Both the position numbers and the translations under genes were made by a program. 64,000 bases of DNA, from positions 1,178,001 through 1,242,000 of the forward strand of contig NZ_AP023180.1 of NCBI RefSeq assembly GCF_013426915.1, in the 5' to 3' direction. This stretch comes from Paraburkholderia sp. PGU19 (GTDB lineage: Bacteria > Pseudomonadota > Gammaproteobacteria > Burkholderiales > Burkholderiaceae). The notes under the pieces are model-generated. The model was not told where the DNA came from, did not search any database, and saw only the letters and a list, made by a program, of their open reading frames with translations. This document shows, one piece after another, positions 33,035-54,089 of the stretch; position 1 is the stretch's first letter; the number at the start of each line of letters is the position of its first letter.

Positions 33035-33079
33035 TGAGTCGTTATGTATCACGCGGCGGCGCAGATACATTGGGATACA
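33035..33079. promoter_or_regulatory. 45-bp dyad, copy 1
   Basis: Half-sites TGAGTC (33035), TGTATC (33045), GATACA (33064) and GATACA (33074) give the spacing 6-4-6-13-6-4-6. The dyad lies 232-276 bases upstream of the alpha/beta hydrolase start (32803), with no other gene start between. The same architecture is found at 36344, 52024 and 54045. Confidence 0.65.
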
Positions 33080-33133
33080 AAAACGTCGTGAATTGCCGTC
33101 CGGGAAGCAGGTTCAACCATCAGGACCGTCTTA

Positions 33134-33580
33134 CTACTTCTTCGCTTCGTCCGCATCGTAGGTGACGTAGAGCTTGGTGTAGCCCTGCGTGTCGAACTGC
33201 CCCGTCCAGCCTTTCGGCAGCGTGACGGCTTCGCCCGTATTCACGACCATCACCGAACCGTCCGATGACGTCAGCTTCACATTGCCCGAAAGAAAATAGA
33301 GGAACTCCGTATAAGGCAGACCTTGCGGACCTTTGATGTCCTCGTGCAACGGACCCGATTTGTACACGCCCGTCTGATAGGCGTTGTCCGGCGAAGTGAA
33401 GGTGACCACGTCAGTACTTCGATTTCCGCTTTCGTCTTTCTTGACCGCGTCGTTACGGTTGAATACCGCGCCCGCGAGTTCGGCCTTCGAAACCTTGACG
33501 GGCTTGATGGTTTCCGCGTGCAAACCCGCTGACGCGATGGCACTGCTCAATGCCAATGCTGCGAAAAATGCCTTGTTCAC
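33134..33580 (-). CDS. exported cupin-domain protein (GTG start)
   Basis: The 148-residue product starts at a GTG at 33580, preceded by AGGA; this gives a normal signal peptide (NKAFFAALALSSAIASAGLH). The frame is open to 33739 but that part lies inside the AraC gene. The mature part is a single cupin with SGPLHEDIKG, YTEFLYFLSGNVKLTSSDG and VNTGEAVTLPKGWTGQFD, closest to the ureidoglycine-aminohydrolase/EutQ-like cupin type (COG3450). The usual metal-binding histidines are reduced. It starts 25 bases after the AraC stop. Function is unknown. Confidence 0.75.
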   Translation of the reverse strand: MNKAFFAALALSSAIASAGLHAETIKPVKVSKAELAGAVFNRNDAVKKDESGNRSTDVVTFTSPDNAYQTGVYKSGPLHEDIKGPQGLPYTEFLYFLSGNVKLTSSDGSVMVVNTGEAVTLPKGWTGQFDTQGYTKLYVTYDADEAKK

Positions 33581-33605
33581 GATGTTTTCCTGTGACTGAA
33601 TGCTT

Positions 33606-34586
33606 CTACAACTGATTACCCGTAAAGCGGAAATCCGATGGCGACACGCCGTATTGCCGCTTGAACAGGCGGCTGAAATGCGCTGCCGTGGTGAATCCGC
33701 ACTGCCATGCAATTTCCTGAATCGAACTGTCGTGCACACCGCGCGTTCGCAGCAACAGCGCCGCGCGCTCGAGCCGCGCCTGCCACAGATACCGCATCGG
33801 CGACATGCCCTTTACACGGAACAGCCGCTGCAAGTGTTGTGACGAAACATGCACGCCGGACGCAATCGAAGCGACATCCAGCCCTGCCTCGCCAAGATGA
33901 CTTTCAATGTAGCGCTTCGCCTGATGGATCAACGCTTCGGGGCATCGCCGCTTCGACCGCGCGCCGGGATCGATCATCGCGAACTCGATGAGTTCGAGCA
34001 GTTGTTCACCCATCATGTTCTGTGCAATGACGCTCGGCGCGGTGGATTGCCGCGCGATGCACTGGATGAGATCGCAGGTCGCGCGAACATCGGGCGACAA
34101 TGCATCGCCGACCAGCGGCCCCGCGCTCGACCGATGCACGCCGCGTTCGCGCAAACGCGCTTTCGGTACGCGCAGCACCGTCATCCGTGCGCGTTCAGGG
34201 AACACTTCGACAAACGGATAGACGGGGTCGATGATGAACATGCTGCCCGCGTCGAAACGATCGACCAGGCCGCGCGATTGCACATGCACATGGCCCTCCG
34301 TCACGAGCTTGACGAACAGCCAGCCGCCTTGCCACGACGGCAATTCCTCGCCGACGGGCGACAGCGTCTGCGTTGCGAGGTCGGCAAGCGAGACGCCGAC
34401 TTCGCCCAGGCGCCAGCTCTTGACGGTCGAGTCGATCGACTGCCGCGGATCGAAGGCGCATTTCAATCCGTGGCTGTTCAACATGATGTGCGACCATCGC
34501 TCGCCCGCGCTCAGACCGGTGTCGAAAGTGATCTCGTGCGTGTCGAAGTGCATGAAAACGTCCCATGAATCAAGACGGACGGGCAT
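33606..34586 (-). CDS. AraC-family transcriptional regulator
   Basis: The 326-residue product has an N-terminal AraC-binding-like domain (about 1-190) and a C-terminal double HTH (about 218-320): IASGVHVSSQHLQRLFRVKG, then IQEIAWQCGFTTAAHFSRLF and KRQYGVSPSDFR. It sits between the aldehyde dehydrogenase and the cupin genes on one strand (68 and 25 base gaps), and probably controls this small operon in response to an aldehyde or its precursor. The ligand is not known. Confidence 0.9.
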   Translation of the reverse strand: MPVRLDSWDVFMHFDTHEITFDTGLSAGERWSHIMLNSHGLKCAFDPRQSIDSTVKSWRLGEVGVSLADLATQTLSPVGEELPSWQGGWLFVKLVTEGHVHVQSRGLVDRFDAGSMFIIDPVYPFVEVFPERARMTVLRVPKARLRERGVHRSSAGPLVGDALSPDVRATCDLIQCIARQSTAPSVIAQNMMGEQLLELIEFAMIDPGARSKRRCPEALIHQAKRYIESHLGEAGLDVASIASGVHVSSQHLQRLFRVKGMSPMRYLWQARLERAALLLRTRGVHDSSIQEIAWQCGFTTAAHFSRLFKRQYGVSPSDFRFTGNQL

Positions 34587-34654
34587 GCGCAGGTCTTTGG
34601 CGCGACCGTAACGAATCGATCACGACGACCGTCACGCCCGCGCCTCTCTGCCTG

Positions 34655-36124
34655 TCATCCAGCCGCCGTCGGCATGAACACTGCCTTGGTTTCGAGGTAC
34701 GCCTCCAGTCCCTCGCGGCCGCCTTCGCGGCCCACTCCTGACAACTTGTAACCACCGAACGGCACATTCGCCGCCAGTTCGATGCCGTTGATGCCAATAT
34801 GGCCTGCCCGGATGCGGCACGCGAGTGCGTAAGCCCGCTCCACGTCGCTGCTATAAACTGAGCCGCTCAGGCCATACGGCGTGTCGTTCGCGATACGCAC
34901 GGCGTCGTCGATGTCGTCATAAGGAAGAATCGACACGACGGGGCCGAAGATCTCCTGCTGCGCAATCGTCATGTCCGGCGTGACGCGAGCGAATACCGTA
35001 GGCTCGACGAAATAGCCTTTCTCGAAGCCGCCATTGCCCGTTCCGCCCAACACCCGTTGCGCGCCTTCCTCGATGCCTCGCTCAATATAGCCGCGCACGC
35101 GATCGCGCTGCACGGCGTTCAATACCGGCCCGATCCGCGTATCGGTCTCGCGCGGGTCGCCGAGCTTCAGCTTCGAAATGATCTCAGCGTACGCGCTGAC
35201 GACCTCGTCATGCTGTGCCCTGGGCGCAAGTATGCGCGTCTGTGCGAAGCAGATCTGGCCGGAAAACGGCATCGTGAACGGCGTCAGCGCTGCCAGTGCC
35301 GAAGGCAGATCGACGTCGTCGAGCAGAATCGCCGCTGATTTCCCGCCGAGTTCCAGCGTCACGCGCGCCAGCCGGTCCACCGCCGCGCGTGCGATCCACT
35401 GCCCCGTTGCGACGCTGCCCGTAAAGCTGATCTTGTCGACATCGCGTGACTGCACCAGTTGCGCGCCCTCGTCGCGGCCCGCCGTGATGACATTCAGCAC
35501 GCCCGGCGGGAGGCCCGCAGCCGCCGCGCATTCCGCGATGATCAGCGCATCGAGCGGACTCTCCGGCGGCGACTTGACGACAACCGTGCAACCCGCAGCC
35601 AGCGCCGCCGCGATCTTGTGCGACACGATCGGGAAGGTTGCATTCCACGGCGCAACCAACGCGGCCACGCCGACGGGTTCGCGGCGAACGCGCGCATGCC
35701 CGCGCCGCGTCGGTCGTGAGTCCTCGAACTCGAACGTCTCTGCGAGCGACGCAAAGAACTCGAAGCGCGTGATGCCCGTGGGAAGCAGGCCGCTCGCGAA
35801 TGTAATTGGCGCGCCGACCTGATCGGTCCACAGTTGCGCGAGCAAGGGCAAGCGCTGGCGGATTTCTTCCGTCAGCCGCTTCAGATAGATGCTTCGCTCA
35901 GCGCCCGATAGCGTCGGCCACGGACCCTTGTCGAACGCCCTGCGCGCCGCCGCGATCGCACGCTCGACGTCCACGGAATCCGCAAGGGGAACCGACATGA
36001 ATGGCTCTTCCGTCGCAGGAGAAATCAGCACATGGCGCGCGTCGGCGTGGCTCAGCACCCATTCGCCATCGATGAAAAAGCGACTGCGGACATTCGACGA
36101 AAGTGCTGTGGAGTACTCGGTCAT
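34655..36124 (-). CDS. aldehyde dehydrogenase
   Basis: The 489-residue product has all ALDH catalytic residues: Asn161 (APWNATFP), Lys184 (VVVKSPPESP), Glu258 (LELGGKSAA) and Cys292 (GQICFAQTR), with the NAD motif FTGSVATGQWIA. It oxidises an aldehyde to the acid with NAD(P). The closest look is to the broad ALDH families used for aromatic or xenobiotic aldehydes, so the substrate cannot be named. The ATG at 36124 is chosen because the 49 residues upstream in frame lack coding character. First gene of a likely operon with AraC and cupin genes. Confidence 0.92.
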   Translation of the reverse strand: MTEYSTALSSNVRSRFFIDGEWVLSHADARHVLISPATEEPFMSVPLADSVDVERAIAAARRAFDKGPWPTLSGAERSIYLKRLTEEIRQRLPLLAQLWTDQVGAPITFASGLLPTGITRFEFFASLAETFEFEDSRPTRRGHARVRREPVGVAALVAPWNATFPIVSHKIAAALAAGCTVVVKSPPESPLDALIIAECAAAAGLPPGVLNVITAGRDEGAQLVQSRDVDKISFTGSVATGQWIARAAVDRLARVTLELGGKSAAILLDDVDLPSALAALTPFTMPFSGQICFAQTRILAPRAQHDEVVSAYAEIISKLKLGDPRETDTRIGPVLNAVQRDRVRGYIERGIEEGAQRVLGGTGNGGFEKGYFVEPTVFARVTPDMTIAQQEIFGPVVSILPYDDIDDAVRIANDTPYGLSGSVYSSDVERAYALACRIRAGHIGINGIELAANVPFGGYKLSGVGREGGREGLEAYLETKAVFMPTAAG

Positions 36125-36343
36125 GATCTTTCCGATTGAAAGTCTTCTACATCTACAGTGAAAGGGTTTCGATCGCGTGATGCCGGGTTGAAACCCACCA
36201 ACGGATTCCGCTAACGCAGGGAACCTGTGACTTTTCAGTGTAGTGATTCGACTCTTTCGGAAATTGTCCAAGGCAATTCGATCGCTTGTCCAAAACGCGC
36301 TTTCTGACTGATGCCTGGTTATAGCCTGGTTTTAGTGCAGGAA
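36125..36343. other. long leader region upstream of the aldehyde dehydrogenase
   Basis: The spacer from the aldehyde dehydrogenase to the truncated sigma-factor gene (36125-36499) is AT-richer than its surroundings and contains the 45-bp dyad at 36344. Apart from this I see no gene and no further repeat. Confidence 0.35.
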
Positions 36344-36388
36344 TATGTCGTAATGTGTCTACAGCGTCTCCGGATACATTCCGTTTCA
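36344..36388. promoter_or_regulatory. 45-bp dyad, copy 2
   Basis: Half-sites TATGTC (36344), TGTGTC (36354), GATACA (36373) and GTTTCA (36383) keep the 6-4-6-13-6-4-6 spacing. The dyad lies 220-264 bases upstream of the aldehyde dehydrogenase start and 112 bases upstream of the truncated sigma-factor gene on the other strand. Confidence 0.6.
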
Positions 36389-36499
36389 AAGACGAATGCG
36401 CGTCCCAGACAAGACAAATACGCCGCATGGACAAGGCATCCGCCAATTTGGAGCGATAGAGTAGACAGTTCCCCTCGGTCATTCCGCTTCCCGATTGCA

Positions 36500-36811
36500 A
36501 TGCAGTGCATAGATCTCTCGCTCGTTCTTCCGGACATGCTTCCCCGGCTCTGGTCTTTCGCGCTACGGCTGACAGAGAACGAATATGAAGCGGAAGAACT
36601 GGTTCATCAGGCCTGTGCGCGCGGGCTTGAAGACTCACACAAGCTGCCTCGCGATACATCGCCGATCGACTGGATGTTCTCGATCATCTATTCGATCTGG
36701 CGCGCCGATCCGATGGGCCACGCGCGGCGGCATTCTACTGCGAAGAAAAGTTCTCTTTGCTCACCACACCTTTTCCAGAAAAACGTTCGCGGAATAGATC
36801 CGCCTGGCTAA
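36500..36811 (+). pseudogene. truncated ECF-type sigma-factor gene (region 2 only)
   Basis: The 103-residue frame begins MQCIDLSLVLPDMLPRLWSF and continues ALRLTENEYEAEELVHQACA and DWMFSIIYSIWRADPM, which matches sigma region 2 of ECF factors (LWRFALRLT...DAEDLVQ..C.RAL...W.F.I...W). Complete factors have 160-200 residues and a region 4 HTH; here the frame degenerates after SIWRADPM and ends. Region 4 is not found downstream in other frames before the USP gene. It may be a remnant, or a small protein that binds core polymerase but not promoters. Confidence 0.6.
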
Positions 36812-36929
36812 GCGTTGTTGAGAAGAGCACCGGAAATCCAGCATCGGATGCATCCGGCTCGCATTACGAATTCCTCACTTTCAATCGGAGTACGATCCGC
36901 TTCGCGCTCCGTTACGGCCTCGAAAGAAC

Positions 36930-37379
36930 ATGTCATCCTTTTCAAGAATGCTGCTCGTCTACGACGGAACGCTCGAAGCGCAAGCCGCGCTGAAACGCTG
37001 CTCGCAATTGTCGCTGGCGTTGTCCGCACACGTCGATGTCGTTTCCGTCGTCGATTCGATCACCGCCAATGCGACTTGTGCAGGCTTGCTGTCGGATCTC
37101 GCGTGCAGCAGTATGGAAGCCCACGCGCAACACGCGCTCGACGTTGCCGTCACGCATCTCATGAATCTCGGCGTCACCGCGCATGGCTTCATCAAGTTCG
37201 GACGCACTATCGACGTGGTTCCGCTGCATGTCGCAGCATTCCATGCCGATATCGTGGTGATCGGCCATCGCGCGCGATCGGGGTTCGCGCGCTGGTGGGG
37301 CGAGCGCCCGGTTCATCTCGATCTGGCCGAACGGCTGCGGGGCGCCGCAATCGTGGCCGTCACCGCGCCCCTTTCGTGA
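36930..37379 (+). CDS. universal stress protein family
   Basis: The 149-residue product has the UspA fold: first strand FSRMLLVYDGTLEAQAALKR, and the C-terminal ATP-loop region ADIVVIGHRARSGFARWW, where the usual G-x2-G-x9-G-[ST] is only partly kept (GHRARSG). ATP binding is therefore doubtful. USPs help survival in stress and low oxygen. It stands alone between the sigma-factor remnant and the amidase gene. Confidence 0.85.
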   Translation: MSSFSRMLLVYDGTLEAQAALKRCSQLSLALSAHVDVVSVVDSITANATCAGLLSDLACSSMEAHAQHALDVAVTHLMNLGVTAHGFIKFGRTIDVVPLHVAAFHADIVVIGHRARSGFARWWGERPVHLDLAERLRGAAIVAVTAPLS

Positions 37380-37429
37380 TGTTTGATGAGGGCGCGTGTG
37401 GACCGGGCGGCAGTTGCCGCCCGGCAAGC

Positions 37430-38830: not shown

Positions 38831-38869
38831 GTTGTCCCCGATAATGATTCGGACTGGAAATGATACGCC

Positions 38870-39802: not shown

Positions 39803-39910
39803 TGTCTTGTCCTTGTCGTTGTAGAAACTGGTTTGCAGGCCGTCGAACGCGCTAACGCCGATGCCTGACAAGGATTAGAAGCGCCGAATGTGTCGTCTGT
39901 TTTTCCTCGA

Positions 39911-39926
39911 CGTATCCAAATGTATC
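39911..39926. promoter_or_regulatory. half of the TGTATC dyad (direct repeat only)
   Basis: CGTATC (39911) and TGTATC (39921) are direct repeats with a 10-base period, as in the full 45-bp dyads, but no matching GATACA pair is seen 13 bases further on. It lies upstream of the BON gene and downstream of the receiver gene. Confidence 0.5.
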
Positions 39927-39986
39927 GGGATTACAGTTGCATTGCATGTGCTCACGCATAACGTCTTCAGAAGCTCGATCTGATCG

Positions 39987-40507: not shown

Positions 40508-41170
40508 TTATCGCGGCGTGTGAACGATGCCCAGCGCTTCCATTTTGCGCATCAGTTCCGCGACCGAACGTGAGTTCATCTTGCGCATGGCCTGGCCGCG
40601 ATGAATCTTCGCGGTGATCTCCGCGATACCCATGTTCGCGGCAATCTGCTTGTTCAACAGGCCCGTTGCGACGAGTTGCAGCACTTCGCGCTCGCGCGGC
40701 GTCAGCGACTCCCACGCCGTGCGCATCGTATGCAGCGAGCGATCCGACGCGAGACGGCGCGCGTCGCGCTCCAGTGCGGCGATCACGGCATCGATCATGT
40801 CCTGATCTCGGAACGGCTTGGCGAGAAAATCCATTGCGCCGGCCTTCATCGCTTTCACCGACATCGCAATGTCGCCGTAGCCCGTCATGAAGATGATGGG
40901 CATATGCAGGCGTCCGTCGTCGATCAGCGTTTGCTGCAACGCGAGGCCGCTTTGACCGCGCAACCGCACGTCGAGTACGAGACACGAAGGAATGGCGGGT
41001 TTGTCGGCAGCCAGAAATTCTTCTGTCGACGCAAACGCGCGCACGTCGATATCGATCGAGCGCAACAGGCCCGAGAGCGCGCCACGCACGAGCTCATCAT
41101 CATCGACGACATAAACGAGGCGGGCATCGGACTCAAGGAAACCAGTCTGGAACGGCGTGGAATTGGACAT
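40508..41170 (-). CDS. FixJ/NarL-type response regulator (receiver plus LuxR HTH)
   Basis: The 220-residue product has a receiver (YVVDDDELVRGAL, LVLDVRLRGQSGLAL, FMTGYGD, LAKPFRD) and a LuxR-type HTH (LTPREREVLQLVATGLLNKQ, then IAANMGIAEITAKIHRGQ). This matches FixJ/StyR/TodT-type regulators. The gene lies 134 bases after the stop of the large sensor kinase on the same strand; that kinase is its likely phosphodonor. A perfect palindrome upstream (41284) suggests autoregulation. The ATG at 41170 is preferred over 41212. Confidence 0.92.
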   Translation of the reverse strand: MSNSTPFQTGFLESDARLVYVVDDDELVRGALSGLLRSIDIDVRAFASTEEFLAADKPAIPSCLVLDVRLRGQSGLALQQTLIDDGRLHMPIIFMTGYGDIAMSVKAMKAGAMDFLAKPFRDQDMIDAVIAALERDARRLASDRSLHTMRTAWESLTPREREVLQLVATGLLNKQIAANMGIAEITAKIHRGQAMRKMNSRSVAELMRKMEALGIVHTPR

Positions 41171-41283
41171 CGGTGGTTTTTGCTGTTTTCGATGGCTCGA
41201 ACGTCCGCTCAATCAAGCGGACGACGATGGTAACAAATGCGATCACGACGGTCCACGACGCTCATCGGCGAACACGCGGCAAT

Positions 41284-41297
41284 CATACGATCGTATG
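41284..41297. promoter_or_regulatory. perfect 14-bp palindrome CATACGATCGTATG, copy 1
   Basis: CATACGATCGTATG is its own complement. It lies between the kinase stop and the FixJ-type regulator start, 114 bases upstream of the regulator. Related sequences precede the receiver gene (40457), the thioredoxin-reductase-like gene (48030) and hydrolase 2 (49882). Confidence 0.65.
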
Positions 41298-41304
41298 CGG
41301 CCGC

Positions 41305-44300
41305 TCAAGCGACGAAACGCGGCAGCGTGAACGTCGCGCGCGTGCCTTTCGCTTCGCGCGGCGACAGCGTCAACGTGCCGCCATGGGCTTCGACGATCGA
41401 ATGGCAGATGGCGAGGCCCATGCCCATGCCGTTTTCCTTCGTCGTGAAAAGCGGTTCGAGCAGACGCCCGGCAATCTGCGGATCGATGCCGCTGCCCCGG
41501 TCTTCCACCGACACGCAAACAGGCGCCCCGTCATCCGATGTACAGATCAGTCTCAGCTTGCGTTCGCCCTGCGCGAGCGACGCCATCGCTTCGGCGCCGT
41601 TCGTCAGCAGATTGATGGCGACCTGCTGCAACTGGATGCGGTCGCCGCGCACCTGCACGGCACAGTCGAGACCGCGCAGCTCCAGCGTGATCTTCATCGC
41701 ATCGAGTTGCCCGCCGACGAGCGCGGCCGCCTCACGCAGCGCCTCGTTCAGATCGAGCGTGGTGAATTGCGGCTCTGCCCGGCGCGCCTTCGCGCGCAGC
41801 CCCTGAATGATCGCCCTTGCCCGCGTCGCGCTCAGGCCGATATGCGTGAGCATCGCACGCGTCTCGTCAATCTCGGGCGGATTGCGGTTCAGCCAGCGCA
41901 ACGCCGCGCTCGCCGACGTATCGACGGCAGCGAGCGGCTGACCGACTTCGTGCACGATCGACGCGACCAGCTCGCCCATCGCCTTCAAACGGCTTGCGCG
42001 CTCCAGATCGCCGAGCGCATTGCGCAATTGATCTTCGGCCTTGGCGCGCTGCCGGTTTTGCTCGAACAGCTCTTCATAGAGACGCGCGTTTTCGAGCGCG
42101 AACGCCGCTTGCGAAGCGACGACTTCGAGCAACGCCGCTTTCGCCGATGTGAACACATTTGCCGCGAGATTGTTCTCGATATAGAGCACGCCGACGAGCA
42201 TCGCGTAACGCATCAGCGGCACGCACAGCACCGAGCGTGGACGATGACGCCGCACGTAATCGTCCTGCGCATAGGCGGGCGAATCGCACGCGTCGTCCAG
42301 CACGAGCTTTTCCTGCGTACGCGCGACGGCATGCACGATCGACACAGGCAGCGTCTCCGACGAGAAATCGGCCGCGTCATGCGAGACGACGATGGCGCCG
42401 CCCAGCACATGCGCACGCGCCGCCACGCGCCACACGCCGCGTTGCAACAGCACCAGCGCGCCCTGCTCGGCGCCCGCGCTTTCGAGTGCCGTACGCAACA
42501 GCGTTTCGACCAGACGCGCGGGCACGATGTTGCTGGCAAGCGCATTGGAAATCCGCAGCACGGCCTGAACGTCGAGTTCCTGCAGACGGCTCGCGCCCGG
42601 CGCGCTGCTGTCGGACTCGAAATAGTCCGGGTAGTCGGCCTGCAACTGACGCACCTTGCCCGTCGCGCCCCAGCGCTGCCACGCGCCGCGCGCGTGGTTC
42701 AGATACGCTTGCGCGGGCACCTCTTCCTCGCGCGCGGCATGAAAGCGCGCCGCCAGTTCGGCGGCCAGCGCTTCGACCTGCGTGAAGCCGTGACGGCGTG
42801 CGTGCGATACGGCCCTCGCATACCGTTGCCCGGCTTCGTTCGCGAGGCCCACTGCGCGCAAGTATTCGGCCCGCACCAGTTCACGCCGCGCAACGAAGTT
42901 CATCGGGCATGCGCGAGCCCACACATCGAGTTGATCCATGTAGCGCTGAAGCGCCGCTTGCTGTGCGGCATCGCGCGTGGGCAACGCGAGCAGCGTCAGC
43001 GCGCCGTAGTACGGCAACTCGGCGCGCTCCGCGAACGAGCGTGCAAAGTGCGCGCAGGCATCGGCCCGCCGATGCGACTCGACGGCATCATGCAGATCGC
43101 CGAACAGCAGCGCGCGTTGCATGCGATACACCCAGTAGGCGAGATCCACCAGCGTGACGGGCGCGCCTTCGACAGGCACGGGCGGCGGCTCTTCGTCGGG
43201 GTCCGGCGCGCCATCCTGCAGTGCCGTGACGAACGCCCACTTCGCGAGAAACGATTTGATGACGAGGCGAAAATTCGCATCGCGCACCAGCGCTAGACCT
43301 CGCGCAATCGTCGCGCGCACGTCGCCGAGGAACTCGCCTGCGAACAGCATCCCCGTGACCTGGTTGCTGGGGCAATACATCGCGAAGGTGTGGTCGCCGC
43401 TTTGGACGGCGACATCGAACGCGCGGCGGATGTAGTCGTGCCCCGCTCTCGCCGGCAAGGCCCACGGCACGACGAAGGTGCCGAACACCATATAGACCCG
43501 CGCGCGATAACGCGCGAGGCCACGCTCGTCGACGAGATGCAGCGCCAGCTCACCGAACGGCAACGCGGCCGTATGGTCGCCGTAGCGCGCGCCGAAAATC
43601 TGCTGCATGCACGTGTACACGTTCGCCGACGCATCGGAATGGCCGTGCTCGATCCCGAGATTGACGGCACGCAGCAGCATCAGGTCGACGAGATCCTGAT
43701 CCGTGTAGAGCGCGGGCGGAATCAGATCGGCGAAGATGTCGGTGATCGCGCGGCGCAATGGGTCGGCGACGATCGGCAGGCGGCGCAGCCCGTCGATGCC
43801 ATGCTCGTCGAGCCAGCCGCGCAGACGCGCATATTCGCGGTCGACGTCGTAGACACTCGGGCGCAACGGCACGTCGATGCCCGCTTTGCTCAGGAACGCG
43901 AGCCCCACCTGCAATGCGAGATCGTAGCGGCCGAGCGTCGTGTAGAGTGCCGCGCGCAAGCGAGCCAGGTCCGCGCCGAAGATGCCGTCGCCCGCCACCC
44001 GCTCCAGCGCCGACAGCCGCGCCTCGGCGGGTTCGAGCGCGCCCGTCATGAACTCCGCCTCGCCGCACAGCATGCGGGCCGTCAAGCCATCTTCGCTGGT
44101 GTCGTCGTCGCCGAGAAAGTCGAGCGCCGCGCGAAACAGGCCCAGGGCCGAATGGTGCGCGGTCGCTGCTTTCGCTTGCCGGCCGGCGTCGAGATTGAGG
44201 CGCGCGAAGGCGAGCCGCTCGTCAGGGTCCGTGACGGCGGGCCGCGCGAGATTGATCTGCACGGCCATCGCGAACACGTCTGCCTGTGCGCCGTGATGCG

Positions 44301-46377
44301 CGAGCATGCGCCGCGCGATCTTCAGATGCAGCGGCGCGCGCTCGGCCTTCGGGATCGACGCGTACGCCGCCTCGCGGATGCGGTCGTGCCAGAACACCCA
44401 GTCCTCGCCGTCGCGATAGACGCTGCCCGCTTCGAGCGCGGCGTGCAGGCCCTGAACCGCATCGCAGCTGGGCAGCGCCGAGGCGATGGCGAGCATGTCG
44501 CCCGATGCTCGGTCGCCAAGGCAAGCCAGCGTGCGCAGCACGCACTGCGCGGGCACGGGCAACTGCTCGAGCTTGTGCGTCAGCAGGTCGATGACGTTGT
44601 CCGCGCCGCGATGGCTCATGATGCGTTCGAGATGCCAACCCCACGCGCCTGCTTCGAGGTCGTATTCGAGCGCGCCTTCGTCGGCGAGCACACGCAGCAG
44701 ATGGCGAACGAAGAACGGATTGCGCCCGGTCTTGCGGCCGATTTCGTCGGCCAGCGGCGCGAGCGCGTGCGTGTCCCGATGCAGCGCGAGCGCGATCAGT
44801 TCGCGCAACGCGTGGTCGTTCAACGGTCCCAGTTCGATGCGCAGCGTGTCGCGCGATTGCGCCAGCGGACCGACCCGCAACGGATGATCCGCGCCGACTT
44901 CGTTGCCCCGGAATGCGCCGATGAACAGCAGCGCCACGTCCGCGTGCCTGAACAACCGTTCGAGCACATGCAGCGTGCCGACGTCCGCCCATTGCAGGTC
45001 GTCGAGCAACAGCAGGAGCGGACGCGAGGCCGTCGCAAAGCACGCGATGAGGCGCGCCATGCCTTGCAACACGCGCTCGCGTTCGAGCGAAGGCTGCGGG
45101 TCCGGCGCCTCGCCGATGCCCGGCTGCGAACCGAGCACGGCCGTGAGTGTCGGCAAGAGGCCCGCCAGCGTGCGGCCTGCCGGCCCGGTCGCTTCGCGGA
45201 TACGGTTGCGCCACTGCGCGAATTCGTCGTCGGCGCAACCCAGCACGTATTGCAGCAACGGCTCCAATGCCTGCACGAGGATCGCATACGGTGTCGCGCG
45301 GCGGCCTTCCTCGCTCTTGCCCGCGGCAAGCAGCGGCGCGTCCGTGCGGCGGATGCGCGCGACGGCTTCCTGCAGCAAGGTCGACTTGCCGATACCGGAC
45401 GCGCCGGCGATCCACGCGACGCGCGCCTTGCCGCCGTCAGCGACGGTACGGTAAGCCGTCGTCAATGCTTCAAGTTCTGCTTCACGTCCAAACACACCGT
45501 CGGCACGCTGCAGCGATTGCAGTGCGGCGTGCGTATCGAGCGCAAATGGTGGGATATGCCCAAGACGGTCGTGCAGATCTTCGCACCGGTGCAGGTCGGC
45601 GAGCAGGCTTGCGGCATTGGCGTAACGCTGCCCAGGTGCCTTCTCGAGCAGCTTCATGACCAGATGCGAAAGTTGCTGCGGCACGTGCACGGCGAACTCG
45701 GCGGCCGGACGCGCGCGATGCGTCGCGTGCGCGTGAACGCGCGCGGCGGCATCCGTCGCACTGTCAAACGGCACGATACCCGTCAGCAGTTCATAGAGGA
45801 TGCAACCCAGCGAATAGAGATCGGCCCGTTCGTCGACCCGCAGGTTCATCCGCGCGCCAAGCTCGGGCGCCATATAGCTGAAGCTTGCTTCGCACCATTC
45901 GAAGTCGGCATCGGGCACGCTCGCCATGCCGTTCAGCGCACACGATGCGAAGCCGAAGCCCACCAGCCGGGCCCGGCCTTCTCCGTCGATGAGGAAACTG
46001 CGCGGCATCAGCGCGCGATGGACCACACCTGCCGCATGCATCGCATTCAACGCGGTCGCGAGGCTCACGGCCAGCGCGAAGAATGCCTTCAGGCCAACGG
46101 GACCTTGCATCCGCGCGTGCAACGGCTCGCCGCCCGGGTCGGCCAGCACCAGCAACGCGCCGTTGCCATGCGGCTGCAACGTCAGCGGCACGGCGCACCA
46201 CGCTTCGTGCAACCTGTCGCGCAGTGCGTATTCGCGTTGCAGCGCAGCCAGCTCGGCGGGCGTCGCATTGGCACGGCCAACGACGAGAACGGGCGCAGCG
46301 CTTTCGGCTACGGCCCGTTGCAGTCTGAGCGCTCCCGCGCTGAGTTCAATGAAGTTTCGGGTAAGAAGATCGATCAT
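41305..46377 (-). CDS. fused pseudokinase / AAA-type ATPase / TPR / GAF / sensor histidine kinase
   Basis: The 1690-residue protein has, in order: a Ser/Thr-kinase-like domain (1-270), an AAA_16 NTPase with Walker A GASGIGKST (325-333) and Walker B LLLLLDDLQWAD (455-466 approximately), a long helical TPR-like region (about 640-1230), a GAF domain (about 1260-1420), a HisKA helix with the acceptor His1476 in SIVHEVGQPLAAV, and a HATPase_c domain (NLLTNGAEAM, EDRGSGID, GMGMGLAIC). The kinase domain has HRALMPRS instead of HRDLKPxN and GFG (140-142) instead of DFG, so it is probably inactive. No membrane helix is seen. The FixJ-type regulator and the lone receiver follow on the same strand and are the likely phosphotransfer partners. 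The ATG at 46377 begins the kinase-like domain. Confidence 0.88.
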   Translation of the reverse strand: MIDLLTRNFIELSAGALRLQRAVAESAAPVLVVGRANATPAELAALQREYALRDRLHEAWCAVPLTLQPHGNGALLVLADPGGEPLHARMQGPVGLKAFFALAVSLATALNAMHAAGVVHRALMPRSFLIDGEGRARLVGFGFASCALNGMASVPDADFEWCEASFSYMAPELGARMNLRVDERADLYSLGCILYELLTGIVPFDSATDAAARVHAHATHRARPAAEFAVHVPQQLSHLVMKLLEKAPGQRYANAASLLADLHRCEDLHDRLGHIPPFALDTHAALQSLQRADGVFGREAELEALTTAYRTVADGGKARVAWIAGASGIGKSTLLQEAVARIRRTDAPLLAAGKSEEGRRATPYAILVQALEPLLQYVLGCADDEFAQWRNRIREATGPAGRTLAGLLPTLTAVLGSQPGIGEAPDPQPSLERERVLQGMARLIACFATASRPLLLLLDDLQWADVGTLHVLERLFRHADVALLFIGAFRGNEVGADHPLRVGPLAQSRDTLRIELGPLNDHALRELIALALHRDTHALAPLADEIGRKTGRNPFFVRHLLRVLADEGALEYDLEAGAWGWHLERIMSHRGADNVIDLLTHKLEQLPVPAQCVLRTLACLGDRASGDMLAIASALPSCDAVQGLHAALEAGSVYRDGEDWVFWHDRIREAAYASIPKAERAPLHLKIARRMLAHHGAQADVFAMAVQINLARPAVTDPDERLAFARLNLDAGRQAKAATAHHSALGLFRAALDFLGDDDTSEDGLTARMLCGEAEFMTGALEPAEARLSALERVAGDGIFGADLARLRAALYTTLGRYDLALQVGLAFLSKAGIDVPLRPSVYDVDREYARLRGWLDEHGIDGLRRLPIVADPLRRAITDIFADLIPPALYTDQDLVDLMLLRAVNLGIEHGHSDASANVYTCMQQIFGARYGDHTAALPFGELALHLVDERGLARYRARVYMVFGTFVVPWALPARAGHDYIRRAFDVAVQSGDHTFAMYCPSNQVTGMLFAGEFLGDVRATIARGLALVRDANFRLVIKSFLAKWAFVTALQDGAPDPDEEPPPVPVEGAPVTLVDLAYWVYRMQRALLFGDLHDAVESHRRADACAHFARSFAERAELPYYGALTLLALPTRDAAQQAALQRYMDQLDVWARACPMNFVARRELVRAEYLRAVGLANEAGQRYARAVSHARRHGFTQVEALAAELAARFHAAREEEVPAQAYLNHARGAWQRWGATGKVRQLQADYPDYFESDSSAPGASRLQELDVQAVLRISNALASNIVPARLVETLLRTALESAGAEQGALVLLQRGVWRVAARAHVLGGAIVVSHDAADFSSETLPVSIVHAVARTQEKLVLDDACDSPAYAQDDYVRRHRPRSVLCVPLMRYAMLVGVLYIENNLAANVFTSAKAALLEVVASQAAFALENARLYEELFEQNRQRAKAEDQLRNALGDLERASRLKAMGELVASIVHEVGQPLAAVDTSASAALRWLNRNPPEIDETRAMLTHIGLSATRARAIIQGLRAKARRAEPQFTTLDLNEALREAAALVGGQLDAMKITLELRGLDCAVQVRGDRIQLQQVAINLLTNGAEAMASLAQGERKLRLICTSDDGAPVCVSVEDRGSGIDPQIAGRLLEPLFTTKENGMGMGLAICHSIVEAHGGTLTLSPREAKGTRATFTLPRFVA

Positions 46378-46510
46378 GCGATGACGTTGCAGACACAGCG
46401 ACGGGCATAACAGGCCCGATACTGTACCGTGCCTGTCACCCCGCAACGCCCGTATGTGACGCCGGGCTCATATTGTGACGTCGGGCGATCGCCGGTCGAT
46501 CTTCCCGGGC

Positions 46511-47948: not shown

Positions 47949-48029
47949 CTGTTCGTAACAGCACAGTATTAAAACAGTACGCGTAACTTGAGGTTGCACT
48001 TGGGGATCAAAATAGGCAAGCGTGCATAT

Positions 48030-48043
48030 CATACGTTCGTTTG
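48030..48043. promoter_or_regulatory. ATACG-NN-CGTAT-type palindrome, copy 3
   Basis: CATACG-TT-CGTTTG keeps the left half and most of the right half of the perfect palindrome at 41284. It ends about 60 bases before the start of the thioredoxin-reductase-like gene, a normal activator distance. Confidence 0.5.
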
Positions 48044-48103
48044 GATTGACCCTTGACCCCATAGCCGCGATTATTCCAGCGCAATAGCAAACAGAGGAAT
48101 GCG

Positions 48104-49830
48104 ATGAGTCAGCATCGACACGACAGCGACGATCCACAGGCAGGCGGGCGTCCTTCCTCTATGAAGCCGCAATCGGATTCGAATGCGGCTCCGAAGGCCG
48201 CGCCCGCCGACGACCGTTACCCGCACTTCAGCACCGCCGACATCGAAAAGATGATGCGCTTCGGCATGATTGAGCATTGGCGCTCGGGCGACGTGATGTT
48301 CCGCATCGGCCAGCCGGGACTCGGCATGCGCGTGCTGCTGAGCGGGCGTGCAAGGCTGTCGCGGCGCGATGGGCTCGGCCGGTCGCAGACCATCGTCGAA
48401 CTGGGCGCAGGCCAGTTCCTCGGCGAAGTGGCGCAACTCACCGGCAAGCCCGCGCTCGCCGATGGCCTCGCGCTCGACGACGTTGACGCACTGATGATTC
48501 CGCCACAGCAGATCCGCGACATGCTCGTCGCGGAAGCGCACCTCGGCGAGCGGATCATGCGCTCGCTGGTGCTGCGCCGTTTCGGCCTTGTGCGCGAAGG
48601 CGCCGGCCCCGTGCTGATCGGACGTTCCGGCGATCTCAGACTGCTCGCGCTCGAAGGGCTGCTGCATCGGCTTGGTCATCCGTACTCCGTCGCGGACCCG
48701 CGACCGATTCCGACATCCGCGATCTGCTCGAAGAATGGGGCGTATGGCACGACGATGTGCCCGTCGTCATGCTCGCGGACGGCACGCCGCTGCGAGATCC
48801 CGATGAACGTCAACTGGCCGCGCGCCTGGGCCTGCTGCCCGAACTCGACTCGGCGCGCACTTACGACGTTGCCGTAGTCGGCGCAGGGCCGGCCGGGCTT
48901 GCCGCTGCCGTGTATGCGGCATCCGAGGGTCTGTCGGTGATCGTGTTCGACAGCCATGGCCCAGGCGGCCAGGCAGGCGCCAGCGCGCGGATCGAGAACT
49001 ACCTGGGCTTTTCGACGGGCGTGTCGGGCCGCGAGCTGGCGGCGAACGCGTTCGCGCAAGCAGTGAAGTTCGGCGCGGAAGTCGTGATCCCCACCCGCAT
49101 CGACCGGCTCGACTGCGCGCAGGCACCGCTTCAGCTCGAACTGCAAGGCGGCCAGCGCATCTCGTCGCGCACGGTCGTGATCGCGACGGGCGCGGCATAC
49201 CGGAAGCCCGCCATCGAAGGGCTCGACGAAGTCGCAGGCCGTGGCGTCTACTACTGGGCTTCGTCGATCGAAGGACGTCTGTGCCGAGGCGCGGAAGTGG
49301 TCCTCGTTGGCGGCGGTAACTCGGCGGGACAGGCCGCAGTATTCCTGTCAACACACGCGAGCCGTGTCCACATATTGATTCGCGGCGACAGTCTCGAGTC
49401 GAGCATGTCGCGCTACCTGATCGATCGCATTGCGTCGCTGGGGAACGTGGTGCTGCATACGCGGACCATCGTCGCGTCAGTCAGAAGCGATGAATGGGGC
49501 CTCGAAGCCGTCACATGCAGCACGCCCGAAGGCGAACTCGTATTCGATACGCGGCACCTGTTCCTGTTCACGGGCGCGAACCCCAACACGCAATGGCTGC
49601 GCGATTGCAGCGTCGAGATCGACGACCGGGGCTTCGTCAAAACGGGCCTCGCGGCGGGCGTGCGCGCCGATACGGCATGCTTCGCGTTGCAGACCAACGT
49701 ACCCGGCGTGTTTGCGATTGGCGATGTGCGCAATGCATCGGCGAAGCGCGTTGCGGCGGCGGTGGGCGACGGCGCTGCTGTCGTCGCGGAGATCCATCAG
49801 TTTCTAAGCGCGCCGTTGCCCGTCGCATGA
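48104..49830 (+). pseudogene. cyclic-nucleotide-binding thioredoxin-reductase-like gene, split by a frameshift
   Basis: Two overlapping frames together make one protein of known layout. 48104-48877 codes a cNMP-binding domain (GDVMFRIGQPGLGMRVLLSG, GAGQFLGEVAQLTGKP) and a linker ending GHPYSVADP. 48757-49830 codes the FAD/NADPH oxidoreductase (VAVVGAGPAGLAAAVYAASE, VVLVGGGNSAGQAAVFL, GVFAIGDVRNASAKR). Frame is lost near 48697-48705: the family-like continuation ATDSDIRDLLEEWGVWHDD needs a -1 change. So one base is missing relative to an intact gene. No redox CxxC is visible: the region reads YYWASSIEGRLC. The first frame starts after AGAGGAATGCG. A sequencing error is possible. Confidence 0.78.
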
Positions 49831-49881
49831 GCGCGCGGTTCGCATGAACCGGACGGGTTTGGGGAGAAACCCAGCGTAACC

Positions 49882-49895
49882 TATACGAACGTATG
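49882..49895. promoter_or_regulatory. ATACG-NN-CGTAT-type palindrome, copy 4
   Basis: ATACG-AA-CGTAT (49883-49894) is a perfect inverted repeat around two bases, followed by GCGG as at 41284. It lies 184 bases upstream of the second alpha/beta hydrolase. The rest of the 49831-50078 spacer holds no gene. Confidence 0.55.
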
Positions 49896-50078
49896 CGGTT
49901 GCCCATCCGTATGAATCAGCTGGCTAGATGCAGATTGTATGGAACACATCGACCCCGCAGTCTAATCTTTGCACATCGATGCTTTGAAGCGGCGATCGGC
50001 CATCTTGCCTCGCGTTAGCGGAGCAAGCCGCCCGAACGACTCTGACAAAAAAACTGGTTGAAAAAAAGGAGTACGCAC

Positions 50079-51122
50079 ATGCAAGACACGGTGAATCTGC
50101 GTCGCCGCCGACTGATCGGGACGACTGCTGCAGGCATCGGGCTGCTGGAACTGGGCCTCGGCAACCTCGCGCACGCGCAAGCCACGAAGAGCGCGCACGC
50201 CGCAAAGAAAGCGGCTCACCATACGTCGTTCGATGCGATCGAGCAGATCGACGCCGGCACGCTGAACGTCGGCTACGTGGACATGGGCCCGAAGGACGGC
50301 CAGCCCGTCATCCTGTTGCACGGCTGGCCGTACGACATCTACAGCTTCGTCGACGTCGCGCCGATCCTCGCGGCGGCGGGTTACCGCGTGATCGCGCCGT
50401 TTCTGCGCGGCTACGGCTCGACGCGCTTTCTTGCCAACGAGACGCCGCGCAACGGCCAGCAGGCTGTCGTGGCCGTCGACATCATCGCGCTGATGGATGC
50501 GCTGAAAATCGACCAGGCCATTTTCGGCGCATTCGACTGGGGCGCGCGCACGGCCTGCATCATCGCCGCACTGTGGCCGCAGCGCTGCAAGGGGCTGGTG
50601 TCGGTGAGCGGCTATCTGATAGGCAGCCAGGACGCGAACCGCAAGCCCTTGCCGCCCAAGGCGGAGTTCGCGTGGTGGTATCAGTTCTATTTCGCCACCG
50701 AGCGCGGCGAGCTGGGGTACGCGGCCAACCGCAACGACTTCAACCGGCTGATCTGGCAACTCGCGTCACCGAAGTGGCATTTCGACGATGCCACCTATCA
50801 GCGCACGGCGGCATCGTTCAACAACCCCGATCACGTGGCCGTGGTGATTCACAACTACCGCTGGCGTCTGGGCCTCGTGCAGGGCGAGCCGCAATACGAC
50901 GAGATCGAACAGCGTCTCGCGGCGCTGCCCACCATCGGTGTGCCGACCATCACGATGGAAGGCGATGCGAACGGCGCGCCGCATCCCGATCCGTCCGCGT
51001 ACGCGAAGATGTTCACGGGCAAGTATCAGCACCGCAACGTGAGCGGCGGCATCGGCCACAACCTGCCGCAGGAAGCGCCTCAGGCATTCGCCGAAGCGGT
51101 CCAGCAAGTCGTTCGCCTTTGA
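50079..51122 (+). CDS. exported alpha/beta hydrolase with epoxide-hydrolase motifs (paralogue 2)
   Basis: The 347-residue product has the twin-arginine signal NLRRRRLIGTTAAGIGLLEL, cleaved near AHAQ, then HGWP (81-84), nucleophile Asp153 in GAFDWGART and the His motif GGIGHNLPQEAP. AAGGAG precedes the ATG at 50079; the frame open to 50058 is not needed. It is a close paralogue of the gene at 31775-32803. The OmpR-type regulator gene begins 52 bases downstream, so hydrolase and regulator are likely co-transcribed. Substrate unknown; an epoxide or a lactone-like stress product is plausible. Confidence 0.87.
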   Translation: MQDTVNLRRRRLIGTTAAGIGLLELGLGNLAHAQATKSAHAAKKAAHHTSFDAIEQIDAGTLNVGYVDMGPKDGQPVILLHGWPYDIYSFVDVAPILAAAGYRVIAPFLRGYGSTRFLANETPRNGQQAVVAVDIIALMDALKIDQAIFGAFDWGARTACIIAALWPQRCKGLVSVSGYLIGSQDANRKPLPPKAEFAWWYQFYFATERGELGYAANRNDFNRLIWQLASPKWHFDDATYQRTAASFNNPDHVAVVIHNYRWRLGLVQGEPQYDEIEQRLAALPTIGVPTITMEGDANGAPHPDPSAYAKMFTGKYQHRNVSGGIGHNLPQEAPQAFAEAVQQVVRL

Positions 51123-51174
51123 TCCCCGATGCGTTCAAGCATGACACGCCAATCGTCGCCCCTGACCTGACATC

Positions 51175-51930
51175 ATGGACAAACCCGACCACGTTCTGAT
51201 CATCGACGAGGACCGCGGCATGCGCGAGTTCGTCGCCAGCTATCTGGAGAAAAACGGCATGCGCGTCTCGCTCGCGTCCAGCGGACGCGACATGCACGCC
51301 GTGCTCGACCGGCATACACCCGATGTGATCCTGCTCGACGTAATGCTGCCGGGCGAAGACGGCCTCGCGCTATGCCGCGGGCTGCGCGCCGGGCGTCATC
51401 GTGCCGTACCCGTGATGATGGTGACCGAGCATTGCGACGAGATGGACCGGATCATCGGCCTGGAGATGGGCGCCGACGACTATCTGTCCAAGCCGGTTGC
51501 CGTGCGCGAACTGCTCGCGCGCATCCGCGCGGTGCTGCGGCGCACGCGCATGCTGCCGCCCGGCATGCTGGTGGAGGAATCGACGGAGATGCTGAGCTTC
51601 GGCGACTGGCGGCTCGATACGACGGCGCGCCACCTGCTCGACACCGAGGATGCCGTGGTCGCGTTGAGCGGCGCGGAATACCGGCTGCTGCGCGCGTTTC
51701 TCGATCACCCGCAACGCGTGCTGACCCGCGACCAGCTGCTCAATCTGACGCAACGGCGCAACGCCGAACCGTTCGATCGTTCGATCGACCTGCTGGTCAG
51801 CCGTCTGCGGCAAAGACTCCGAGACGTCGCCCGCGTGCCGCGCTACATCAAGACGCTGCGCAACGAAGGCTATGTGTTTTCGTCGACGGTGAAGGCTGTC
51901 GAGGAAGCGCGCGCGCGGCAGCATGCGTGA
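51175..51930 (+). CDS. OmpR-type response regulator 1 (orphan)
   Basis: The 251-residue product has a full receiver (LIIDEDRGM, ILLDVMLPGEDGLAL with the phospho-Asp, MVTEHCDE, LSKPVAVREL) and a winged-helix output domain (LSGAEYRLLRAFLDHPQRVL, then RSIDLLVSRLRQRLRD and RYIKTLRNEGYVFSS). No OmpR-type kinase gene is near. It is a paralogue of the regulator at 56453-57223. It follows hydrolase 2 and precedes the 45-bp dyad and dipZ-like gene, so it is a good candidate to bind the dyad. Confidence 0.92.
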   Translation: MDKPDHVLIIDEDRGMREFVASYLEKNGMRVSLASSGRDMHAVLDRHTPDVILLDVMLPGEDGLALCRGLRAGRHRAVPVMMVTEHCDEMDRIIGLEMGADDYLSKPVAVRELLARIRAVLRRTRMLPPGMLVEESTEMLSFGDWRLDTTARHLLDTEDAVVALSGAEYRLLRAFLDHPQRVLTRDQLLNLTQRRNAEPFDRSIDLLVSRLRQRLRDVARVPRYIKTLRNEGYVFSSTVKAVEEARARQHA

Positions 51931-52023
51931 TGCGTGTGGCTGTTTCAACGTCGCTGGCGTCTTGCCCGGCATGACGGCGCATTAGGCGTATCTGCATTCA
52001 CCAGACGGCGCCCGGCCGTCGTT

Positions 52024-52068
52024 TGTATCGCCATGTATCCGGCGGCGCAGCCGATACATCGCGATACG
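52024..52068. promoter_or_regulatory. 45-bp dyad, copy 3 (best match)
   Basis: TGTATC (52024), TGTATC (52034), GATACA (52053) and GATACG (52063) make the most regular copy, with one mismatch in 24 half-site bases. It lies 132-176 bases upstream of the dipZ-like start at 52200 and downstream of OmpR-type regulator 1. The spacer 51931-52199 holds no gene. Confidence 0.7.
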
Positions 52069-52199
52069 CAACCCTTCTCTCCTGAAATTCGCCGGATACA
52101 TGTGCGGGCTTTAATCCGTCACAAGGGCACGCGCGAGATCGACATGCGCTGCGTGCAGACCGGTTGAATCAACCGTTTCCGGATCAGGAGGTCGATTCC

Positions 52200-53960
52200 A
52201 TGTTACTCATCGTCATTGCGTTTCTGGGCGGGGTGCTCACCATCCTGAGCCCATGTATCCTGCCCGTCGTGCCATTCGTCTTCGCCCGTTCCGACAAGCC
52301 GTTCGTGACAGGCCGGCTGCCGTTGCTGCTCGGCCTGGCTATCACGTTTGCGCTCGTTACGGGCGTCGGCATTGCTGGCCTGAGCGGCGCCGCGCAACTG
52401 AACCACTACGGGCGCTGGGTGTCGCTCGCGCTATTCGGTGTGTTCGGCGCATCGCTGCTGTTCCCGACGCTGTCGGCGCGTCTGTCGCGCCCGTTCTTCG
52501 GGATCGGCAACCGCGTCGCCGCGCTGTCGCAAATGCGCGGCACGCGTTTTCAGATCGGCTCCGCGCTGCTGCTCGGCGTGGCGACGGGCCTGTTGTGGGC
52601 GCCTTGCGCCGGTCCGATTGTCGGCCTGATTCTCACGGGCGCCGCGCTGCATGGCGCGACCTGGACGACGGCGGCGGCACTGACCGCGTACGCGCTCGGC
52701 GCGGCGAGTTCGCTCGCCGTCGTGTCGGGGCTCGGCAAGCAGGCGCTCGACGGACTCAAGCGGTCGCTCGGTCTCGGTGAGCGTGTGCGCCGCGCGATGG
52801 GCGCGCTGGTGCTGTTGAGCGTCACGGCCATCGGCTTCGGTTTCGATACACGCGCCCTCGCGCAGTTGCCGTCGGCATCGACGACGGGCGTCGAAAGCCG
52901 GCTGGTCGGCCTGCTTGGTTCCGACCATACGCAACAGCCGCGCACGCTGAAGCCGCACATCCAGCGCATCAGCGCGAAGGTGCCGTCCGCGCTGCCTGTC
53001 GAAGGCCATCTGCCTTCGCTCGATGGCGCCGAGAGCTGGATCAACTCGCCGCCGCTCACGAGCGACGCGTTGCGTGGCAAGGTCACCGTCGTCAACTTCT
53101 GGACGTATTCGTGCATCAACTGCCTGCGCACGCTGCCGTATCTGAAGACGTGGTCGGACCGCTATCGTAACGACGGTCTCGTGGTGGTCGGCGTGCATAC
53201 ACCGGAGTTCGCCTTCGAGCACGATCCGTCGAACGTGAAGCGCGCCGTCGCCGACCTCGGCGTTCACTATCCCGTCGCGATCGACAACGGCTACAAGATC
53301 TGGCAAGCGTTCGACAATCAGTACTGGCCGGCGTTCTATATCGTCGATGCAGAAGGCCGCATCCGTTATCACCATTTCGGCGAAGGCGGTTATGCCGAAG
53401 CCGAGAAAGTGATCCAGCAGTTGCTGGCGGAGTCGGGACACACGATGCAGACGCGCGATCTGCCGCCCATTCAGGGCGCCGGTGCGCAGGCGGCCGCAGA
53501 TAACCCGAACGTCGAATCGGGCGAGACCTATGTGGGTTACCAGCAGGCTCGCGGCTTCGCGTCGCCGGAAGACCTCCGGCCCGACGATGTCGCCGCGTAC
53601 ACCGTGCCGTCGCAATTGCCGCTCAATAGCTGGGCATTCGGCGGGAAGTGGATCGTGGGCGGCGAAGCGGCTGTGCTGAACGACGCGCATGGACGCATCG
53701 CCTACCGCTTCCACGCACGCGACCTGCATCTCGTGCTCGGCCCCGGCGTGAATGGCAAACCCGTGCGTTTTCGCGTCACGATCGACGGCGCGGCTCCCGG
53801 CGACTCGCATGGCGCCGATGTCGCCGCCGACGGCAGCGGCGTCGTGACGAGCGCCCGCCTGTATCAACTCGTGCGTCAGCACGACGCCGTGCGCGACCGG
53901 ACCTTCACGATCGAGTTTCTCGATCCGGGCGTGCAGGCTTTCTCGTTCACGTTCGGCTGA
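52200..53960 (+). CDS. DipZ-type fusion: DsbD/CcdA membrane domain plus periplasmic thioredoxin
   Basis: The 586-residue product has a CcdA-like membrane domain (residues 1-215; Cys19 in LSPCILPVVPF and Cys136 in WAPCAGPIVGL), then a periplasmic thioredoxin-like domain with CINC (305-308) in NFWTYSCINCLRTLPYL, and a C-terminal strand-rich domain (about 430-586). This is the order of DipZ proteins. It carries electrons from cytoplasmic thioredoxin across the membrane to periplasmic disulfides, for cytochrome c maturation or repair of oxidised proteins. GGAGG lies 9 bases before the ATG at 52200. It is preceded by a 45-bp dyad. Confidence 0.9.
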   Translation: MLLIVIAFLGGVLTILSPCILPVVPFVFARSDKPFVTGRLPLLLGLAITFALVTGVGIAGLSGAAQLNHYGRWVSLALFGVFGASLLFPTLSARLSRPFFGIGNRVAALSQMRGTRFQIGSALLLGVATGLLWAPCAGPIVGLILTGAALHGATWTTAAALTAYALGAASSLAVVSGLGKQALDGLKRSLGLGERVRRAMGALVLLSVTAIGFGFDTRALAQLPSASTTGVESRLVGLLGSDHTQQPRTLKPHIQRISAKVPSALPVEGHLPSLDGAESWINSPPLTSDALRGKVTVVNFWTYSCINCLRTLPYLKTWSDRYRNDGLVVVGVHTPEFAFEHDPSNVKRAVADLGVHYPVAIDNGYKIWQAFDNQYWPAFYIVDAEGRIRYHHFGEGGYAEAEKVIQQLLAESGHTMQTRDLPPIQGAGAQAAADNPNVESGETYVGYQQARGFASPEDLRPDDVAAYTVPSQLPLNSWAFGGKWIVGGEAAVLNDAHGRIAYRFHARDLHLVLGPGVNGKPVRFRVTIDGAAPGDSHGADVAADGSGVVTSARLYQLVRQHDAVRDRTFTIEFLDPGVQAFSFTFG

Positions 53961-54044
53961 CACCTGGCGGCATCGCTTCAGGCAACGCCACTGCGCTTTC
54001 GCGGCGCAGTGGCGTTTGTCATTGGCAACCCGCTGCCCGAGATT

Positions 54045-54089
54045 TGTACCGCAATGTATATATCCGCGATAGAGAAATACTGGCTTACA
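54045..54089. promoter_or_regulatory. 45-bp dyad, copy 4
   Basis: TGTACC (54045), TGTATA (54055), GAAATA (54074) and CTTACA (54084) keep the exact 6-4-6-13-6-4-6 spacing, with two mismatches in each right half-site. It lies 167-211 bases upstream of the DUF4148 gene. The spacer 53961-54255 has no other feature. Confidence 0.5.

Follow-up and report, generated by a model that had tools for sequence, protein, structure and literature searches.

A 64,000-nucleotide stretch of the Paraburkholderia sp. PGU19 genome (hereafter, the window) contains a recurring 45-bp dyad in which both arms share the consensus GTATC-N5-GTATC and oppose each other across a spacer. On the minus strand, one copy (33035..33079) lies upstream of an operon encoding the alpha/beta hydrolase abh1 (31775..32803; Pfam Abhydrolase_1, with a Tat-like signal recognized by eye) and, as second gene, a cytochrome P460 (31215..31763; PF16694), while another (36344..36388) precedes an aldehyde dehydrogenase (ALDH) operon. 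On the plus strand, a third copy (52024..52068) precedes dipZ, whose DipZ-like product has DsbD_TM, redoxin and Thioredoxin_10 domains (52164..53960; likely start 52200), and a fourth (54045..54089) precedes a DUF4148-like gene (54257). The window also encodes two OmpR-type response regulators (RRs), RR1 (51175..51930, plus strand) and RR2 (56453..57223, minus strand). We propose that these repeats are very probably the landing sites of a sensor-kinase-controlled activator acting on envelope detoxification genes across many soil bacteria.

A 45-bp dyad with fixed spacing

The original prediction described complete copies with identical spacing at these four positions. The N13 spacing is indeed the same in all four; "complete" was an overstatement, because the exact 24-base dyad TGTATC-N4-TGTATC-N13-GATACA-N4-GATACA has no match in the window. 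The copies at 52024, 33035, 36344 and 54045 match 23, 22, 19 and 18 of the 24 fixed bases, respectively, compared to 15 for the window's next best position and a maximum of 14-16 in 20 first-order Markov shuffles. A symmetric matrix built from 28 sites (33035 and 52024 included, 36344 and 54045 left out) gave scores of 49.8 and 48.3 for 33035 and 52024, 34.9 for 36344 and 24.2 for 54045. The next score in the window was only -5.4, and thus it holds no additional N13 dyad. A sequence-only model (R1), constructed from 34 sites including the two strongest in the window, also detected the 33035, 36344 and 52024 dyads; it missed 54045, which is supported by its matrix score and by conservation.

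All four dyads fall between genes called from the open reading frame (ORF) list, 131-231 bp from the start codons chosen in our analysis, in agreement with their predicted placement upstream of genes. The dyad is a real element: shuffles, reversed controls and the gap in matrix scores reject chance. Two other candidates were rejected as well, a known RNA element (no Rfam match at gathering score) and a tRNA-linked element (no tRNAs).

Two further sites had been predicted as partial forms. The first proved to be one: a single clear 16-bp arm (39911..39926, minus strand) upstream of a BON gene, with a weak opposed arm 3 bp off (spacing by eye) and promoter elements of its own. The second, placed at 57328 and assigned to RR2, is instead a weak dyad with a 15-bp spacer (57318..57364, plus strand; matrix 9.7; R1 genome-wide E 0.56). 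Its promoter elements point away from RR2, toward a gene for a LysR-type regulator (57562..58491, plus strand) that is its probable target, and a half-site of RR2 was rejected on this ground.

Promoter architecture around the dyad

The dyad is one part of a larger promoter module. Promoter elements were sought in 94 distinct dyads from 46 sequences (matrix score >15, gaps 12-15). In type A promoters (74 of 94 dyads), GATAC occurs 26 or 27 bp beyond one dyad end, and two of these dyads have another GATAC on the wrong side, at 25 or 29; GATAC was found within a 6-bp offset range in 76 of 188 flanks versus 10 of 1692 control windows. In 70 of 75 flanks, GATACR is followed by a -10-like TNNAAT that starts exactly 9 bp later. 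In type B promoters the -10-like element itself lies close to the dyad: (C/T)TATAA is present in 24 of 94 dyads, always at offset 19, and TATAA(A/C) occurs 28 times in the 188 flanks, 27 of them at offset 20, one per dyad. Eight of the 94 dyads have both types.

The genes that each type faces were also counted. Using the nearest reference gene within 900 bp downstream, type A flanks (n = 75) were assigned to abh (14), thioredoxin (Trx; 11), DipZ (10), Ohr (8), DUF4148 (6), abh3 (5), others (8) or none (13), and type B flanks (n = 27) to GFA (11), ALDH (5), RR (3), abh (3), others (4) or none (1).

In the window, the promoters at 33035, 52024, 54045 and 57328 all show offsets of 26 and 41 bp, as read by hand. 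The hydrolase promoter has a third, promoter-proximal site, GACAAA-N5-GATACG (33003..33019), and a putative -10, TTTAAT (32988..32993), 41 bp beyond the dyad end, both on the minus strand. On the plus strand, the corresponding elements are GATACA (52095..52100) and TTTAAT (52110..52115, again 41 bp beyond the dyad end) for dipZ, GAAACA-N5-GATACG (54105..54121) and TCAAAT (54131..54136) for the DUF4148-like gene, and GACATG-N5-GATACA (57380..57396) and TCAAAT (57406..57411) facing the LysR gene. The 36344 promoter is of type B, with a putative TATAAC (36318..36323, minus strand) 20 bp beyond the dyad end; its intergenic region is common to the ALDH operon and a divergent sigma-factor-like ORF (36311-36811; by eye). 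At the BON gene, GACACA-N9-TCTAAT (39874..39894, minus strand; positions by hand) reads as a promoter-proximal site plus -10 located 31 bp past the arm. Half-sites are spaced 11 bp apart in the third site and 10 bp apart in the dyad arms. A search of this genome for promoter-proximal sites lacking a dyad returned only the 54045 promoter, using a strict pattern that also missed the promoters at 33035 and 52024.

A second collection, which shares some close species with the first and was gathered otherwise, consists of 80 loci of ~8.7 kb selected by their RR genes from at least 590 candidates, with dyad gaps of 6-21 allowed (RR-first set). Of its 168 flanks, 41 have GATAC at 26-27 and 25 have TNNAAT at 41-42; TATAA(A/C/T) falls at 20 in nine of its 12 occurrences.

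This geometry suggests activation. The promoter-proximal site takes the place of the -35, with 9 bp between its end and the -10, and the same placement is seen for pho boxes at activated promoters. Moreover, the arm-to-minus-10 distances of 20, 31 and 41 bp are about one helical turn apart, although the 31-bp class comes from one promoter. That an RR acts through the dyad as a repressor, rather than an activator, is therefore unlikely, even though ArcA, an RR from the same family, represses 74 operons and directly activates 11, according to PMC3798270.

Distribution of sites and association with response regulators

Across the 11.2-Mb PGU19 genome the pattern outnumbers its control: allowing ≤3 mismatches yielded four sites, versus none for the reversed control, and the inner pattern with ≤2 mismatches yielded 13 matches versus two. 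R1 identified six loci at E<0.01, three of them in the 64-kb window (naive binomial P=3.6e-6 for this clustering). Outside the window, the genome has one site ahead of an OsmC/Ohr-family gene (C3:1621880), one ahead of a redoxin gene (C3:2219665) and one (C1:1840041) ahead of a GFA gene, with genes for an OmpR-type RR and a HAMP/HisKA/HATPase kinase next in line. In another locus (L013, 1501-1527), CTGTATC-N13-GATACAG has transporter-like genes and a cNMP-binding-like ORF for neighbors (by eye); it is probably a different or chance palindrome.

Comparison of upstream regions of orthologues showed that the four N13 sites are kept among close relatives. The abh1, ALDH, dipZ and DUF4148 sites were present in 20 of 20 cases in five relatives (G042, G001, G053, G043 and G020), with N13 or N14; the weakest copies were those of ALDH in G053 (17.6) and DUF4148 in G001 (18.4), and G001 and G053 have a dipZ spacer of 14. 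On the LysR side, the dyad has N15 in G000, G042, G001 and G053, a strong N14 form in G020 and an insertion in G043. Across these relatives spacer letters vary, and the arms and promoter offsets are kept.

Among 58 congeneric genomes (PGU19 included), the strict pattern was found in 25, with none for the reversed-pattern control, and R1 gave a match at E≤0.01 in 50. We scored an RR as present when a relative of at least 61% identity was found (45 genomes, plus G008, in which the gene is in two pieces). By this measure, a site occurs in 46 of 46 RR-bearing genomes versus four of 12 RR-less genomes (Fisher 2.6e-7, uncorrected for phylogeny). Because no more than 46 candidates were scored per genome, RR absence is not strict.

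The association extends beyond the genus. A motif scan of 274 genomes of the class recovered PGU19 and one of the 273 others, G222, in which the site lies just upstream of a gene for an RR of 55% identity, with a kinase after it. In that genome (L076, 6486-9946), the site stands between the RR-kinase pair and a HlyD/MacB-type export pair. Among 200 genomes of G222's order, six match at E≤1e-4 (G222 and five new ones); all five new loci adjoin abh1, abh3, Trx, RR or Ohr genes, and three of the five include an RR of 66-67% identity within the 3-kb locus. Of the 80 RR-first loci, 60 contain a site, and the gap is 13 in 68 of 84 sites; a site lies <800 bp upstream of the RR gene in 44 of 80 loci and within 200 bp in 35. 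None of the 80 loci passed after shuffling (gap 13 only).

The genes beside the sites also recur. Pattern-fetched sites adjoin abh1, DipZ, Trx, Ohr, GFA-RR and epoxide hydrolase genes, frequently with no synteny, and the families found repeatedly downstream in alpha-, beta- and gammaproteobacteria are exported hydrolases, DipZ/TlpA thioredoxins, Ohr and GFA. In the same three classes, sites also precede operons encoding an OmpR-type regulator and an EnvZ-like kinase, and loci from Rhizobium, Pseudomonas, Variovorax and Massilia again contain some members of the DipZ/Trx, abh, RR, kinase and Ohr set. In four loci (L194, L196, L201 and L203), more distant RRs (56-58% identity for some) have TGTAAC-like half-sites upstream, a hint that regulator and site drift together.

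A predicted two-component system and its relatives

RR1 and RR2 both contain a PF00072 receiver and a PF00486 Trans_reg_C domain above cut-offs. D11, D13, D55 and K106 are invariant in the six RRs aligned, and by analogy we take them to be the phospho-acceptor aspartate, acidic pocket and lysine; the stretch DRSIDL(L/M)VSR(L/V)RQRL, common to all six (RR1, RR2 and the contig C1 RR among them), is presumably the recognition helix, by analogy with OmpR. RR1 and RR2 are paralogues of the C1 RR without an adjacent kinase: none was found among neighboring ORFs of at least 150 aa, by eye or with Pfam. The C1 kinase is 66% identical to the query from L104, and no other close kinase was found in this genome (the next is 43%); the RR linked to the C1 kinase has a site at its own operon. 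With no kinase beside RR1 or RR2 and one close kinase in the genome, we hypothesize that one kinase serves all three RRs. Elsewhere among the dyads (40508-46446) are a FixJ-type RR and a 1713-aa protein-kinase/AAA/GAF/histidine-kinase protein; at 48104-49830, cyclic-nucleotide-binding-like and thioredoxin-reductase-like halves occupy two overlapping frames, perhaps through a frameshift (by eye).

The suggestion that the dyad accommodates a pair of dimers of a winged-helix regulator is supported for the OmpR type, with binding predicted from tandem 10-bp GTATC half-sites that fit the OmpR rule, the position of the site beside one RR subfamily, and their co-occurrence. OmpR half-sites are described as GXXXC, ~10 nt apart, in PMC9100119, and both dyad arms have half-sites of this type and spacing. 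We consider it highly probable, judging by these sequence features, that an EnvZ/OmpR-like two-component system controls envelope detoxification genes through the dyad as its upstream operator.

Several observations weigh against this assignment. Neither promoter pattern was found at four of the 94 dyads, that of G222 included, and 20 of the 80 RR-first loci lack a site (16 of these have an RR of ≤58% identity). The site at the C1 operon is degenerate in one arm and scores 9.0 with the matrix (R1 E 1.9e-5), and the sites were drawn from related genomes and so are not independent. Finally, three genomes without an RR of at least 61% identity have good sites (G022, G032 and G045; E 9.8e-7, 4.3e-7 and 2.0e-9) and a fourth has a borderline one (G026; E 0.00285); a kinase search in these four gave 39% for G022, 52% for G045, 41% for G026 and none in G032.

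The first three of these RR-less genomes, together with LysR genes that recur beside some sites, would also fit binding by another regulator of the neighborhood (LysR, AraC or a FixJ-type RR), with the OmpR-type RR as a fellow target. We regard this as quite improbable: an RR, usually with a kinase, accompanies the site in alpha-, beta- and gammaproteobacteria where LysR and AraC matches are few (in loci picked by RR), motif-first matches in another order adjoin RR or partner genes, and both the skew toward RR-bearing genomes and the tandem 10-bp GXXXC repeats agree with OmpR. Short arms, and the presence of half of the strong PGU19 sites in one 64-kb stretch, might suggest a dispersed repeat or chance matches of no regulatory role; this reading can be dismissed, given spacers that drift between constant arms and promoter offsets, a reversed-pattern control of zero in 58 genomes, and the same downstream gene families across orders.

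In the EnvZ/OmpR-like system that we propose, the membrane kinase encoded on contig C1, after GFA and the regulator, would phosphorylate the OmpR-subfamily regulator, and regulator dimers would occupy each tandem TGTATC-N4-TGTATC arm, the arms opposed across ~13 bp. At type A targets, an extra dimer on GACACA-N5-GATACR at the -35 position would hold RNA polymerase at the TNNAAT -10. At type B promoters, which include the GFA-regulator-kinase operon and some others, the dyad end lies 20 bp before the TATAA(A/C) -10 and could provide autoregulation. Sites, spacing, conservation, gene context and co-occurrence are seen in the sequences themselves; binding, phosphorylation and activation are predicted steps. 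The target genes lead us to guess that the signal is peroxide, thiol or electrophile stress at the envelope.

The predicted system resembles several known ones in part. PhoB acts at pho boxes, tandem repeats that replace the -35 and end ~10 bp before the -10; here, it is the third site, accompanying a distal opposed pair, that resembles a pho box. HprSR/MsrPQ, the periplasmic oxidant response, likewise comprises a kinase and an OmpR-family RR that guard the envelope from oxidants; its target genes differ, and the likeness is one of description. OmpR and EnvZ are the best NCBIfam matches of the RRs and the kinase, yet the RRs score 229.5, 222 and 241.3 bits against a cut-off of 331 for the OmpR equivalog (NF007005), and the C1 kinase 178.5 against 415 for EnvZ (NF007004); scores for PhoB (TIGR02154) are 190.6, 200.1 and 204.7 against 296.2. 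Unlike E. coli OmpR/EnvZ, with which it shares GXXXC half-sites ~10 nt apart, the system has a different regulon and opposed arms, and the same genomes also hold other RRs of ~45% identity. ArcA, an OmpR/PhoB-family RR that also uses direct repeats, has sites of two to five elements at 11-bp spacing, variable in number and layout, with one weak opposed pair at dctA, and mostly represses, according to PMC3798270; in contrast, layout and promoter offsets here are fixed, and center-to-center spacing in the dyad arms is 10 bp, with 11 bp confined to the third site. A fungus-induced five-gene cluster of P. terrae BS001 has cupin and exported hydrolase types in common, a likeness of gene type (PMC5209427, PMC7186790). 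No named match for the motif or system was found among the matches listed from an open-access library, in several cases the best 10-25, although a subscription paper could exist. Its fixed opposed-plus-proximal layout would set this two-component system apart as new within OmpR-family regulation.

Starting from a motif noticed by eye, these results arrive at a predicted regulon for which the regulator, kinase, operator and promoter positions are all proposed, from Rhizobium to Pseudomonas to Paraburkholderia. They may, more tentatively, reflect a proteobacteria-wide, undescribed envelope-stress system with a fixed operator grammar, in which divergent promoters share one opposed pair of tandem dimers, with arm-to-minus-10 distances of 20, 31 or 41 bp (whole helical turns), and, in this genome, one kinase serves three RR paralogues that compete at the same operators. 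Exported hydrolases, DipZ-type thioredoxins, Ohr and GFA proteins would be under the control of this proposed switch, whose promoters would offer a strict natural test of how the spacing and orientation of OmpR-family sites affect promoter output.

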